A DNA stretch of 40,826 nt, from positions 1-40,826 of the forward strand of contig JAQUCY010000002.1 of NCBI GenBank assembly GCA_028685975.1. The letters run 5' to 3'. The stretch is from Acholeplasmataceae bacterium (GTDB lineage: Bacteria > Bacillota_I > Bacilli_A > Acholeplasmatales > UBA5453). Position 1 is the first letter of the stretch. Every line of letters starts with the position of its first letter. Positions 17,637 through 24,100 of the stretch are shown in pieces. The position numbers were made by a program, and so were the translations under genes. The notes below the pieces were generated by a model. It worked only from the letters and a program-made list of their open reading frames with translations. It had not been told where the DNA came from and ran no database searches.

Positions 17637-17654
17637 TTTAGATAGGTGAAGTTT

Positions 17655-19967
17655 ATGTATGCTCAAGTTATTGTTGATATATCTTCAAAACATTTAAATC
17701 AAATATACGATTATAAAATCCCTTTTTATTTAGAAGGATCTATAAAAATTGGAATGCGTGTTGTGGTGGATTTTAATCATCAAAAAAGACTTGCCTATAT
17801 AATTAATCTTATGAAGACTTCTAAAGTAGCTACAAAAGAAATCTTATACACCTTAGAAGACGAACCAACGCTAATAACCTCTCAACTTAAACTTATAAAA
17901 TATATTCAAGAAACCTCATTTTCTAGTTATAATGAAGCTTTTGAAGTGGTTGTCCCAAATGCTTTACAAGCTGCTTACGAACATTATGTTACCATTCGAG
18001 ATTTGGATCTTGTCTCAAAACATCTTAGACACTATGTTAAAGAGGGTGTTATTTGGTTAGATGATCTAAATAGCGAAGACTATAAAGAAGTGAAAAATTT
18101 AATTCATAAAGGTATCTTAACAAAAGAAGTTGAGGTTGTTAATAAAGGTGGAATTAAATTTCTTCCAGCTGTTTTTTTGAATGATTTTGATTGTAGACTA
18201 ACATCTAAACAAACAGAAATTGTTAAGAGAATCGGTCGTGAAACTTTCTTTGTTAAAGATTTAGTCAAGGAAGGATATTCAAAAAGAATTATTCATACAT
18301 TGGTAAGTAAAGGTGTTTTAGGGCTAAAAGATATTGAGTATTACCAACAAGAAATATCTCATTATGAATCTCATGAAGATGTGATAACATTAACAAATGA
18401 ACAATCCCTAGCAATTAAACAAATAGATATTAATAAATATAAGCGCTATTTATTGTTTGGTCCGCCTGCATCAGGTAAAACAGAGGTTTATTTAAGAGTT
18501 ATAGAAAAAGTGATGAATATAGGTAAGCAAGTATTAATTTTAGTGCCCGAGATTGCCTTAATTTATCAGATGACTTCAAGATTAAAGGAAAGATTTGCTG
18601 AAGAAGTTTTGATTTATCATAGTAATCTTAATACCCAAGAAAAATACGATGCGTATCGAAAAACGAAAGACGGCAAAATAAAATTAGTTGTTGGAACTAG
18701 AAGTGCGCTATTTCTACCTTTAAATAGGTTAGGATTGATTGTTATTGATGAAGTCCATGATACTTCATACATTCAAAAACAAATGCCTTTTTACGATACT
18801 AAAGAACTAAGTTATCGATTAGGCGAACACTATAATATTCCCGTTCTGATGGGATCTGCAACGCCGACTATATCTATGATTTATGAGACTGACTTAGAAA
18901 TGATAAAGCTGTTGACATTATCTAAGCCAATCTTTGAAAATAAAATTGGTATAAAATTAATAGATATGAAAAAAACACCTACTTTAAAAGATGATTTTAT
19001 CTTTTCAGTAGATTTAATCACTAGTATCAAACAAAGGTTGATTCAGAATGAACAAGTCATCTTGCTTGTAAACAGACGTGGTTACGCACCGTTTGTGATG
19101 TGTAGAACTTGTGGAAATGTGCCTACTTGTCCAACTTGTGGGGTAAATCTTGTTTATCATAAAGAGCATAACCTATTATTGTGTCACCACTGCGGTTACA
19201 AAGAATCTTATAGTGAAATCTGTAAAGTTTGTAAATCTAAGCAAGTTTTACCAGTTGGATTTGGAACTGAACAAGCTTTAGAAAGTTTAAACAAGCTATT
19301 TCCTTTCGCAAAAGTACTGAGAATGGATTTAGATACAACTAAGCGTAAAGGTGCATATGATAAAATGTTGACAGAATTTAAAAAAGGCAACTACGATATA
19401 TTGTTGGGGACACAAATGGTCTCTAAAGGACATCACTTTGAAAATGTTACTTTAGTAGGTGTTTTATTAGCTGAACAGATGATAAATTTAAATAGTTATT
19501 TGTCTAATGAAACTACTTATAACATCATTAAACAACATATTGGTCGATTAAGAGGTGTAAAACAAGGGGATGCGATAGTTCAAACTTATAATCCGAATCA
19601 TTTTGTCTTAAAGAGTCTTGAAACTAATAACTTTGAATTATATTATATGCAAGAACTTAACAACCGAAAAATCTTAAAGTATATGCCTTATAATCAAGTT
19701 ATCAAAGTTACATTTAAAGGTTTAGATGAAAATAAAACGGTTAATACCTTAACGAGAATTAAAAACAATATTATTGCGAAAAACAGTCAAATTGAAATCT
19801 TAGGACCAACGCCTGATTATATTCTTATGGACAAGGATAGATATAATTACAGTATTTTACTTAAAACATTGCGACACTTTGATCCAAGTTATTTAATGAA
19901 TTACTTAGATAAACGTTTTTACAAGGACTATTTAATCGTAATAGATTATTATCCAGATATGGTATAG
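17655..19967 (+). CDS. priA: Primosomal protein N' (PriA helicase)
   Basis: LLFGPPASGKTEVYLRVIE, VGTRSALFLPL, IDEVHD, eight-Cys zinc region CRTCGNVPTCPTCG...CHHCG...CKVC, GTQMVSKGHHFENVTLVGVL. ATG 17655 preferred to GTG 17646. Confidence 0.95.
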   Translation: MYAQVIVDISSKHLNQIYDYKIPFYLEGSIKIGMRVVVDFNHQKRLAYIINLMKTSKVATKEILYTLEDEPTLITSQLKLIKYIQETSFSSYNEAFEVVVPNALQAAYEHYVTIRDLDLVSKHLRHYVKEGVIWLDDLNSEDYKEVKNLIHKGILTKEVEVVNKGGIKFLPAVFLNDFDCRLTSKQTEIVKRIGRETFFVKDLVKEGYSKRIIHTLVSKGVLGLKDIEYYQQEISHYESHEDVITLTNEQSLAIKQIDINKYKRYLLFGPPASGKTEVYLRVIEKVMNIGKQVLILVPEIALIYQMTSRLKERFAEEVLIYHSNLNTQEKYDAYRKTKDGKIKLVVGTRSALFLPLNRLGLIVIDEVHDTSYIQKQMPFYDTKELSYRLGEHYNIPVLMGSATPTISMIYETDLEMIKLLTLSKPIFENKIGIKLIDMKKTPTLKDDFIFSVDLITSIKQRLIQNEQVILLVNRRGYAPFVMCRTCGNVPTCPTCGVNLVYHKEHNLLLCHHCGYKESYSEICKVCKSKQVLPVGFGTEQALESLNKLFPFAKVLRMDLDTTKRKGAYDKMLTEFKKGNYDILLGTQMVSKGHHFENVTLVGVLLAEQMINLNSYLSNETTYNIIKQHIGRLRGVKQGDAIVQTYNPNHFVLKSLETNNFELYYMQELNNRKILKYMPYNQVIKVTFKGLDENKTVNTLTRIKNNIIAKNSQIEILGPTPDYILMDKDRYNYSILLKTLRHFDPSYLMNYLDKRFYKDYLIVIDYYPDMV

Positions 19968-19976
19968 AGGTGTAAT

Positions 19977-20894
19977 ATGAACATTGTCTTTATGGGAACC
20001 CCTTATTTTGCTGTTCCTATCTTAGAAAAATTAAATGAAATTTCACCCATTAGTCTTGTTGTTACACAACCAGATAAAAGGGTAGGCAGAAAACAAGAGT
20101 TAACTTACTCACCAGTTAAATTATTTGCAATTAGAAACAACATTGAAGTTTTTCAGCCCCAAAACATTAAAACAGATTATCAACGAATCATTGATACAAG
20201 ACCCGATATAATTGTTACAGCTGCTTATGGACAAATGATTCCATCTGAGTTAATAGATAATTATATTATGGTAAACATTCATGGTTCATTATTACCTAGA
20301 TATAGAGGTGGTGCACCTGTTCAAAGAGCTATTATGAATGGCGATGAAACAACGGGGGTTACATTAATGTATATGGCACAAAAAATGGATAGTGGAGCAA
20401 TTATTGCTCAAAAAGAAATTTTGATTGAGGATGACGATACCACTACTACATTGATGAGAAAACTTTCCTATATCGGAAGAGATTTATTAATTGAAAACTT
20501 AGAAGACATTTTAAACAAACAGATTAATCCAATCCAACAAGTTGATTCCCAGGTTACATACGCCTATAATTTAAATAAGAATGATGAAATACTTAATTTT
20601 AATCAATCAACATATTTAGTAATGAGACAATTAAATGGGTTGCTAGATGAGCCTGCTGCATCGATATTTATTAATGGTGTTAGAATAAAGGTTTTCAAAC
20701 TAGCAAAAAGTGATATAATATCAAGTATGAAGCCAGGAACAGTGGTTTCTATTGATAAAGAACTGCACGTTAAAACATTAGATGGTGTAGTTAGAATTAT
20801 GGAGTTATCTGAACAAGGGAAAAATAGAATGACCGACGAAGCATATTTGAACGGTCAAAAAATAATTCTTGAAGGGAGTGTTTTCAATGAGTAA
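19977..20894 (+). CDS. fmt: Methionyl-tRNA formyltransferase
   Basis: MNIVFMGTPYFAVPILEKL, NIHGSLLPRYRGGAPVQRAIMNGDETTGVTLMYMAQKMDSGAI. Confidence 0.97.
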   Translation: MNIVFMGTPYFAVPILEKLNEISPISLVVTQPDKRVGRKQELTYSPVKLFAIRNNIEVFQPQNIKTDYQRIIDTRPDIIVTAAYGQMIPSELIDNYIMVNIHGSLLPRYRGGAPVQRAIMNGDETTGVTLMYMAQKMDSGAIIAQKEILIEDDDTTTTLMRKLSYIGRDLLIENLEDILNKQINPIQQVDSQVTYAYNLNKNDEILNFNQSTYLVMRQLNGLLDEPAASIFINGVRIKVFKLAKSDIISSMKPGTVVSIDKELHVKTLDGVVRIMELSEQGKNRMTDEAYLNGQKIILEGSVFNE

Positions 20895-21456
20895 AAAATT
20901 ATTATTTTCGCGTGAAGAAATGACAAGATTGTGTGTTGAGGCTTTAAAAAGTCGTGGGGTTGAAATAGATGATATTGCAAAAATCAGCTATAAACAACAA
21001 GCAAGATATACCGACGACATCAAGTTTGAAACATGTCGTGAGTCAGTTTTAAAAATATTATCCTTAAGAGACATATTTCATCATGTTTTACTAGCGGTTG
21101 AGTTAGATAAAATGGCAGAAAAGAAAATGTTTGAAGGTCCGATTCAAGATATTATTGAAGCTGATTTAGGTTTATTTGGTGTTGATGAGGTTTTAGGGTT
21201 AGATGTTGCGAGGATTTATGGGGTTATTGGGATGACCAACTTTGGTGATATTGACGTCAATAAACATGGTATTGTGAATCATCTAAATACAGAAGGAAAA
21301 AAACCTGGGGTTGTCCATACGTTTTTAGACGATATTGTTGGGGCAATTGCAGCTGCAGCATCCACTAGGGTTGCTCAAGTTATTAATGAAGAAATGGCTC
21401 AAACTGAGACACACGAAAAAATATCACTATTCGATAATATAGAAGAGTTAAAGTAG
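20887..21456 (+). CDS. pgpA: Phosphatidylglycerophosphatase A family protein (PgpA/YutG-like)
   Basis: GLFGVDEVLGLDVARIYGVIGMTNFGDIDVNKHGIVNHLN...VHTFLDDIVGAIAAAASTRVAQ; ATG at 20887. Confidence 0.8.
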   Translation: MSKKLLFSREEMTRLCVEALKSRGVEIDDIAKISYKQQARYTDDIKFETCRESVLKILSLRDIFHHVLLAVELDKMAEKKMFEGPIQDIIEADLGLFGVDEVLGLDVARIYGVIGMTNFGDIDVNKHGIVNHLNTEGKKPGVVHTFLDDIVGAIAAAASTRVAQVINEEMAQTETHEKISLFDNIEELK

Positions 21457-21466
21457 GGAATAATTA

Positions 21467-22756
21467 ATGGCGAAAAAGGATAAATTTAAAAAGGCGACTA
21501 AGGGACTATTTAATCGTTTTTTTGGGTTTGAAACAGGGGTTGATATTACCGATGAAGTTGCGGTATTACATAGACGTAATATTGTTATTAAAAATATCAC
21601 ATTTGTTTCAAACATTTTTTATTCTATTATTTTATTTATTGTAGCTTATTACTCCGGTAAGGCTTCAGATTGGCTATTTACAGCATTGTTTTTTCCGTTC
21701 ACTTTCTTCTTAAATACAGTTATAAAACGTTTAATAACTTCTGATACCCACGATAAAACTAAACAAGAGGTAGCCATGTATCTTTTGGCTACTTATATGT
21801 TTATCTCAGCCATATTATTTTACGCAAGATTTTATCAAACCGATTCTTTAGAAACCGCTGCTTATGTCATGATTTATTATGCGATAGTTGTGATTAGTTT
21901 ATATCAGTCTAAAAAACTCATTTTATGGAGTGCTTTTGGAATGTTGCCTGTCATGACAATTATTCATTTTACTTGGACGTATCGCATTAATACAGATTAT
22001 CAAGGTTTGGAAATTAGTGAATTTTTTAATCGTTTTATTCATGATCCTGCATTCAGTGATATATTACTTAGAACACTAATATTTATCATATTCATTATGG
22101 TGGTTTATGCTATAGTCTCAATAGGTCAGTATATGCAATATGAAAGACGTAATGAATTAGTCAAAAGACGTGAAGTTCAAGAAGATTTCACAACTATTGT
22201 TTCAGATTTGTTTAAAGTTGTATTGTCTTCTAAATCATCATTTTTAGATTTACAACATGTTAATTTAGTTAGTAAAATGAGTAATAAGTTGGGATTAATT
22301 TATGGTACAGATGAATCTAAGATGAGTAAAATTAACACTTTTTCTAATATTCATTTAAGATATAAGGAAATTGAAGATTTAGTGAATCCACCTGAAGAGG
22401 CAACGACAGATTACGATGATTTAAAAGAAAAAACAATGTTAGGGAATCAAATTGCGAAAAGATTACAACTGGCTCAAAAGGCTGAGGATATTGCTAGAGC
22501 TCATATTGAAGGAGCGGCAAATCATAACTTTGTTCTTGAAATGCAAAAGATCCAACCTGAAATTACCTCACAAATAATTTTGTTGTGTGATCTTTATATT
22601 ACCATGCGTAGCACAAAGAGTTATAAGCGTCCATACCCACATAAAACAGTAATTGAGTTATTCCAAACTCAGTTTAATAGTTACTTTGAGTTTCAGTTAT
22701 TAGAACGATTTTTAAGTTATAAAACTGAATTTGAATCAATGTATAATGATTTCTAA
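21467..22756 (+). CDS. Polytopic membrane protein (about 6 TM) with a degenerate HD-GYP-like C-terminal domain
   Basis: Six hydrophobic segments then a soluble region; ...IILLCDLYITMRSTKSYKRPYPHKTVIELFQTQFNSYFEFQLLERFL resembles the HD-GYP end (ADVYDALTS.RPYK...FDP.LV..F), HD and GYP residues not conserved. Confidence 0.6.
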   Translation: MAKKDKFKKATKGLFNRFFGFETGVDITDEVAVLHRRNIVIKNITFVSNIFYSIILFIVAYYSGKASDWLFTALFFPFTFFLNTVIKRLITSDTHDKTKQEVAMYLLATYMFISAILFYARFYQTDSLETAAYVMIYYAIVVISLYQSKKLILWSAFGMLPVMTIIHFTWTYRINTDYQGLEISEFFNRFIHDPAFSDILLRTLIFIIFIMVVYAIVSIGQYMQYERRNELVKRREVQEDFTTIVSDLFKVVLSSKSSFLDLQHVNLVSKMSNKLGLIYGTDESKMSKINTFSNIHLRYKEIEDLVNPPEEATTDYDDLKEKTMLGNQIAKRLQLAQKAEDIARAHIEGAANHNFVLEMQKIQPEITSQIILLCDLYITMRSTKSYKRPYPHKTVIELFQTQFNSYFEFQLLERFLSYKTEFESMYNDF

Positions 22757-22784
22757 TTGAAATATCATTAACTTGTGTTATAAT
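22757..22784 (+). promoter_or_regulatory. metK promoter
   Basis: TTGAAA (22757) - 16 nt - TATAAT (22779-22784). Confidence 0.55.
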
Positions 22785-22797
22785 ATAACTACATCTT

Positions 22798-22927
22798 AAA
22801 ATTCATTAAGAGCTACGGAGGTTAATCACCATTGATGTAGCAGCAACCTGCATAAGCAAGGTGCTTTCGATAAGGGGGAAACCCAACAATGAGTAATTGC
22901 TCTTTTCGTTGGGAAAAGAGTTTTTTT
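22798..22927 (+). ncRNA. SAM-I-like (S-box clan) riboswitch with transcription-attenuation platform, upstream of metK
   Basis: P1 ATTCATT/AATGAGT, AAGAG core, P2 CTAC/GTAG with GGAGG...TGAT kink-turn-like loop, GCAACC...GGTGC P3, candidate pseudoknot CACC with GGTG; then terminator. Confidence 0.8.
22900..22927 (+). terminator. Intrinsic terminator of the metK riboswitch
   Basis: CTCTTTTC GTTGG GAAAAGAG TTTTTTT; competing antiterminator CCCAAC (22882-22887) with GTTGGG (22908-22913). Confidence 0.85.
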
Positions 22928-22951
22928 ATAGAAAAAGGAGAATTTTGAACT

Positions 22952-24100
22952 ATGAAAAGAAAACTATTTACATCTGAATCAGTCACTATGGGGCATCCTG
23001 ATAAAGTTTCAGATAGGATTGCAGATGCCGTATTAGATGCAATATTTAAAGATGATAAAGACGCACACGTTGCTTGTGAGGTGTTAACTACTACCGGATT
23101 GGTTTTGGTGGCAGGCGAAGTAGAAACAAAAACCTATATTGACATCGAAAGTATCGTAAGAAAAACTGTAGAAAGTATAGGTTATACCCGCGGAAAATAT
23201 GGATTTGATGCTGACAATTTGGCTGTATTAACAGCTATTCACAGTCAGTCACCAGATATTGCACAAGGCGTTAATAAGTTAGATGGGTCTATTGGTGCCG
23301 GTGACCAAGGATTAATTTTTGGGTTTGCTTGTGACGAAACGCCAAATTATATGCCATTATCAATCACTTTGGCACATAATTTAGTAAAACGGCTTGATGA
23401 AGTAAGACAAAAGGGTATTCTTGATTTTGTTAGACCTGATGGAAGGTCTCAAGTTACCTTGGAATATGATGAGAATGATAAACCATTTAGAGTTGAAGCG
23501 GTGGTTGTTTCTACACAGCATCAAGACATGGATATTAATGTTTTAAGAGAAACCGTTAAAAAAGAAGTTATTTTTAAAGTGATACCAAGTGAATTGATTG
23601 ATGAAAATACTAAGATTTTCATTAACCCAACAGGGAAGTTTGTTATCGGTGGACCTAAGGGGGATACAGGCGTAACAGGAAGAAAAATTATTGTTGATAC
23701 TTACGGTGGTTATGCGAGACATGGTGGCGGGGCAATGAGTGGTAAAGATCCATCTAAAGTGGATAGAAGTGCAGCATATATGTCTAGATATTTAGCTAAG
23801 AATATTGTGGCTAGTGGTATTGCTACTAAATGTGAAGTTCAATTAGCTTATGTGATTGGTGAGGTTCAACCAGTATCTGTTAGAGTTGATACTTTTGGAA
23901 CATCAATTGTTTCAGAGGCAGATATTGTAGAACAAATAAGAAAACATATTGATTTAACACCAAGAGGTATCATTGACAGATTTAAACTTTTAAGACCTAT
24001 TTATGAACAAACAAGTTTTTATGGTCATATGGGGCGAGAAGATTTAGAATTACCTTGGGAAGAATTAGATTCCATAAAATATTTCAGTGAACTTAAATAA
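22952..24100 (+). CDS. metK: S-adenosylmethionine synthetase
   Basis: [92 protein letters not shown]. Confidence 0.98.

Follow-up and report, generated by a model that had tools for sequence, protein, structure and literature searches.

The leader of metK in an Acholeplasmataceae bacterium raises the question of whether a SAM riboswitch with an unfamiliar 3′ half is a new member of the SAM clan or an ordinary SAM-I RNA. The product of metK makes S-adenosylmethionine (SAM). The gene lies in a 40,826-nt stretch of genomic DNA, all of which was analysed and is referred to here as the window. The initial annotation, made from the letters alone, had described a SAM-I-like riboswitch with a terminator/antiterminator switch and a divergent, restructured P4/J4-1 half. 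Using Rfam covariance models, SAM-I (RF00162) matches 22800–22895 at 50.0 bits against a curated cut-off of 44.4. The match spans the full length of the model (positions 1–108; E = 1e-8 over the window), and no other RNA family reaches its curated threshold anywhere in the 40.8 kb. SAM-I is also the top-scoring clan member in a permissive close scan, with other families far below their own cut-offs. Weak Rfam matches to bablM, PyrR, snoRNA and tRNA, likewise far below cut-off, were set aside as chance. A SAM-clan match was one of the checks that the annotation had proposed, and its SAM-I-type assignment, its choice of gene and its terminator/antiterminator platform all hold. We conclude that the metK leader is a real, functional-looking and essentially ordinary SAM-I riboswitch, not a new class. 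We put the probability that it is a SAM-I (S-box) riboswitch acting by transcription attenuation at roughly 0.94, with SAM as the ligand and the OFF direction taken from the family. Its parts are as follows.

22757–22784, forward strand: promoter-like site TTGAAA-16-TATAAT with an extended −10 TG, agreeing at 11 of 12 consensus positions
22801–22807, forward strand: 5′ strand of P1, AUUCAUU, with the SAM-pocket residues A6 and U7 retained
22808–22811, forward strand: J1/2, AAGA, containing G11 and A12 of SAM-I (conserved positions; PMC3764141)
22812–22841, forward strand: P2 arm, with P2a GCUAC/GUAGC, kink-turn GGA/AUUGAU and P2b GGU/ACC
22823–22827, forward strand: L2 loop, UAAUC
22825–22827, forward strand: L2 half of the pseudoknot, AUC, pairing with GAU in J3/4
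22842–22865, forward strand: P3, AGCAACC-UGC-AUAA-GCA-A-GGUGCU, 100% paired in 27 leaders
22866–22874, forward strand: J3/4, which holds the pseudoknot strand GAU (22869–22871)
22875–22884, forward strand: short P4, GGG-GAAA-CCC, from folding and covariation
22882–22913, forward strand: antiterminator, CCCAAC (22882–22887) with GUUGGG (22908–22913) and GAGU (22891–22894) with GCUC (22899–22902), −11.7 kcal/mol
22885–22887, forward strand: J4/1, AAC, with AWC or AGC in 27 of 27 aligned leaders
22888–22894, forward strand: 3′ strand of P1, AAUGAGU
22899–22927, forward strand: intrinsic terminator, GCUCUUUUC-GUUGG-GAAAAGAGU and seven U, −10.4 kcal/mol
22936–22940, forward strand: Shine-Dalgarno sequence AGGAG, 11 nt before the AUG, read directly
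22952–24100, forward strand: metK, methionine adenosyltransferase, 382 aa (TIGR01034, 554.8 bits against a cut-off of 309.4)

Folded alone, the aptamer gives P1–P4 (folding z = −2.8); in the full leader the terminator forms as well (z = −3.3). The elements that the annotation had quoted, namely both strands of P1, AAGAG, the CUAC/GUAG of P2, GCAACC...GGUGC, the terminator and CCCAAC/GUUGGG, all lie where it placed them. In P2, the tandem G.A of the kink-turn (G19-A20/G35-A36) can be read in the letters as GGA and UUGAU, predicting the turn. Of the 22 residues that we mapped from a list of those conserved in SAM-I (PMC3764141), 20 are kept. The two exceptions in our alignment are A24 and A61 (22866), both U in the window, substitutions that alone do not define a class; position A61 is also variable across the alignment of metK aptamers described below. 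The SAM-pocket residues U4, A6, U7, G11, A12, G43, C44, A45, U57, G58, A87 and U88 are intact. They include the SAM-contacting internal loop of P3 (G43 C44 A45/U57 G58), and the P1 pairs A6-U88 and U7-A87 are present in the letters when read against the same list (PMC3764141).

Covariation was assessed on 27 distinct metK aptamers from the same bacterial order; metK was carried by 41 of the loci fetched before the alignment stage. Across P1, P2a, P2b, P3, P4 and the L2-J3/4 pseudoknot, paired cells make up 96.4% of the total, and 12 of 26 pairs show two-sided changes. Neither value was reached in any of 500 shuffles, and sliding the pairing partners abolishes the signal. Each helix of the P1-P2-P3-P4 four-way junction has at least one two-sided pair. 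P1 is 99.4% paired with one such pair, P2a is 100% paired with changes in three of five pairs, and P4 is 98.8% paired with changes in two of three. The pseudoknot changes on both sides in all three of its pairs, and its own partners beat permuted ones (0 of 5000 permutations as good); kinship inflates such tests, while the opposite-side changes GUG/CAC, GUC/GAC, AUC/GAU and UCGGU/ACCGA are direct evidence. Relatives extend the pairing to up to five pairs, as in UCGGU/ACCGA, AGUGG/CCACU and GGUGA/UCACC. The window has only three contiguous pairs, weaker than most. The annotation had also asked for covariation in relatives' metK leaders, and these results provide it. They do not bear out the loop pairing of CACC with GGTG that it had drawn: CACC belongs for the most part to P2b, as its 3′ strand, and relatives have CGCC, GACC or UCU in its place, while the GGUG of P3 does not vary. 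We therefore rejected that pseudoknot.

Relative to RF00162, the leader has the expected P1, kink-turn P2, P3 with GCAACC/GGUGC, P4, L2-J3/4 pseudoknot, terminator platform and metK target. It departs from the consensus in a P4 of only 3 bp with a GAAA loop, a top P1 pair that is U-A rather than C-G, a J4/1 of AAC rather than AAA, the A24 and A61 changes, and an antiterminator that additionally uses the 3′ strand of P4. The short P4 and the AAC, weakly aligned to the Rfam consensus, are what could be said for a new or structurally divergent class within the SAM clan, one that resembles SAM-I/IV or SAM-IV and has a remodelled 3′ half, a reading to which we give very little weight. SAM-I/IV (RF01725) is without the P2 internal loop and PK-1, and SAM-IV (RF00634) is without P4 and has PK-2/P5 after P1 (PMC6890682, PMC2864571). 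The window RNA shares the clan and the ligand core with both, but it has a covarying kink-turn loop and L2-J3/4 pseudoknot, unlike SAM-I/IV, and a covarying P4, unlike SAM-IV, and the hairpin after its P1 is the terminator. SAM-I is moreover the best clan model, and similar 3′ halves occur in metK leaders that score far higher for SAM-I, at 69–75 bits in Lachnospiraceae and 84.8 bits in a bacterium of the same class (L196).

The 3′ half is thus not restructured, as had been claimed. A short P4 sits in its normal place, and the linker from GGUGC to the 3′ strand of P1 is 23 nt, within the 22–26 nt found in most other Bacillota metK leaders. The GGG noted as an alternative partner for CCC does pair with it, although this GGG-GAAA-CCC is simply P4. 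Compensatory changes in P4 (GAG/CUC in L041, GGA/UCC in L008) favour alignment columns 88–90/100–102, and a register one base off given by RNAalifold was rejected on these grounds. Because the first P1 pair is U-A instead of C-G, the bases before AUGAG are AACA and not AAAG, and for this reason the canonical "GAAAGAU" seemed to be missing. The Lachnospiraceae leaders (e.g., L126, L139) and L196 resemble the window in having P1 CUUAUU/AAUAAG, a short P4, J4/1 AAC and a spacing of 22–25 nt from GGUGC to the 3′ side of P1. They differ in their P4 (CGA/UCG or CAAG/CUUG) and expression platform. Since the short P4 and AAC recur in these leaders, the window leader is, judged by sequence, a recurrent metK-type form of SAM-I found before metK in many related bacteria.

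Less probable again is a decayed or reassigned SAM-I scaffold, in which SAM is not bound or a related ligand such as SAH is, leaving an attenuator only. The changes at A24 and A61 and a score only 5.6 bits over the cut-off would fit such a history, but the pocket residues are intact, the RNA is kept before metK in the 27 aligned leaders, and compensatory changes continue.

The expression platform also speaks for the ordinary SAM-I reading. The terminator arms CUCUUUUC/GAAAAGAG and the seven U at 22921–22927 are where the annotation placed them, and a terminator scan returned one terminator-like site against 0.0 expected. The antiterminator, which also joins GAGU from the 3′ side of P1 to GCUC in the 5′ arm of the terminator, cannot coexist with P4, P1 or the terminator. 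Its stability was equalled by 0 of 200 shuffles of 38 nt and 4 of 200 of 51 nt. In predicted folding of the growing transcript, the antiterminator appears at 22913–22917, followed by P1 and the terminator at 22921. An antiterminator that forms first in the nascent chain, with P1 and the terminator later, is the usual kinetic arrangement. Upstream, the promoter-like site would place the transcription start about 10 nt ahead of the aptamer, though it is weak evidence, since shuffled sequences often contain such sites (1.7 on average). That the hairpin is a constitutive terminator or attenuator of readthrough from priA-fmt-pgpA-hyp429, unrelated to SAM, is the least probable reading of all: metK does follow these genes with the terminator standing between, but the covarying aptamer and dedicated antiterminator would go unexplained, and the promoter-like site lies just upstream.

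In the proposed SAM-I mechanism, P1, P4 and the L2-J3/4 pseudoknot would keep 22882–22894, the 3′ portion of the aptamer, engaged when SAM is bound. The GCUCUUUUC/GAAAAGAGU hairpin could then form, polymerase would stop at the U7 tract and no SAM synthetase would be made, so that metK is off when SAM is plentiful. With little SAM, CCCAAC from P4 and J4/1 together with GAGU from P1 would pair with GUUGGG and GCUC in the arm and loop of the terminator, blocking it and allowing metK to be transcribed. We consider it very probable that the leader halts metK transcription when SAM is abundant; we infer SAM as the ligand and the OFF direction from established S-box biology.

The terminator/antiterminator switch proposed for the window recurs in relatives. 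A terminator was scored in 28 of 33 relatives' leaders, the strict hairpin rule having missed those in the other five, which are visible by eye. By script, 25 of the 28 can form an antiterminator from P1- or P4-side strands; L097 and L102 gave none from these strands despite a scored terminator. These two, with L076 and L107, belong to one genus with 0.7–1 Mb genomes, and in the metK SAM-I leaders of this genus both the aptamer and the terminator are good. The missing antiterminators, the changes at A24 and A61 and the short pseudoknot of the window are the points that count against our reading. Of the 11 scored leaders in the window's family, 9 build the antiterminator from J4/1 and the 3′ strands of P4 and P1; leaders of other families mostly rely on P1 and J4/1 in a AAUAAGGAAA/UUUCCUU-type pairing. 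The attenuation logic thus appears to be kept across families while the pairing partners change. The complementarity in those nine leaders raises the possibility, which we hold only tentatively, that the 3′ strand of P4, and not P1 alone, is the switching strand, with SAM binding read out through P4 and P1. As part of the same tentative proposal, P4 may have been reduced to 3 bp in this lineage, its CCC also serving as the antiterminator's 5′ strand.

A separate observation concerns SAM-I RNAs with still less periphery. About 60 sampled RNAs from the order and some sister families have a linker of only 11–12 nt from GGUGC to the 3′ side of P1 (UAAWGCUUGAAU-GAUGG), and therefore no P4 at all (L005:1501-1587, L027:1501-1587, L030, L048, L053:201-287, L211, L214 and ~50 more). 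Around ten entries of a first listing were false, a P1 match having been called too early; the short linker is common to the true ones. They have a CAAGC/GCUUG pseudoknot and P1 ACCAUA/GAUGGU, and those that were rescanned still score 46–63 bits as SAM-I. Genomes that carry them have up to five SAM-I matches each (G026). Outside Anaeroplasmataceae, many precede small proteins without a Pfam match or an AAA ATPase, not methionine genes. In Anaeroplasmataceae, a P4-less SAM-I precedes priA in the cluster priA-fmt-hyp429-metK (L033, L042, L066, L122, L161, L162). The window's family has priA-fmt-pgpA-hyp429 and then metK (17646–24100 in the window), so the position of SAM-I differs by family, before priA in the one and directly before metK in the other. 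The hyp429 product (21467–22756; 429 aa, without a Pfam or NCBIfam match) is probably a membrane protein; throughout the order it is conserved as a neighbour of metK, at 36–97% identity. A pattern search found no P4-less SAM-I in the window's genome. The literature that we searched, mostly excluding subscription papers, yielded no relevant report of SAM-I in Mollicutes or Acholeplasma, or of P4-less SAM-I.

Of the 13 genomes of the family, 12 have RF00162; across the order the count is 112 of 160. One genus of the order, g15, with strongly reduced genomes of 0.3–0.9 Mb (G059–G072 and others), has no SAM-I match, which suggests that SAM-I control was lost with genome reduction. The window's own genome bin (1.08 Mb, 84% complete) has one SAM-I; the nearest named relative that we found, Acholeplasmataceae bacterium UBA5409, has a MetK 95% identical. 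Taken together, SAM synthesis in this small-genome relative of the Acholeplasmatales is probably under one SAM-I switch, placed on metK and working in the classic way. Its 3-bp P4, along with the P4-less RNAs, bears on the question of the smallest SAM-I periphery that function requires.
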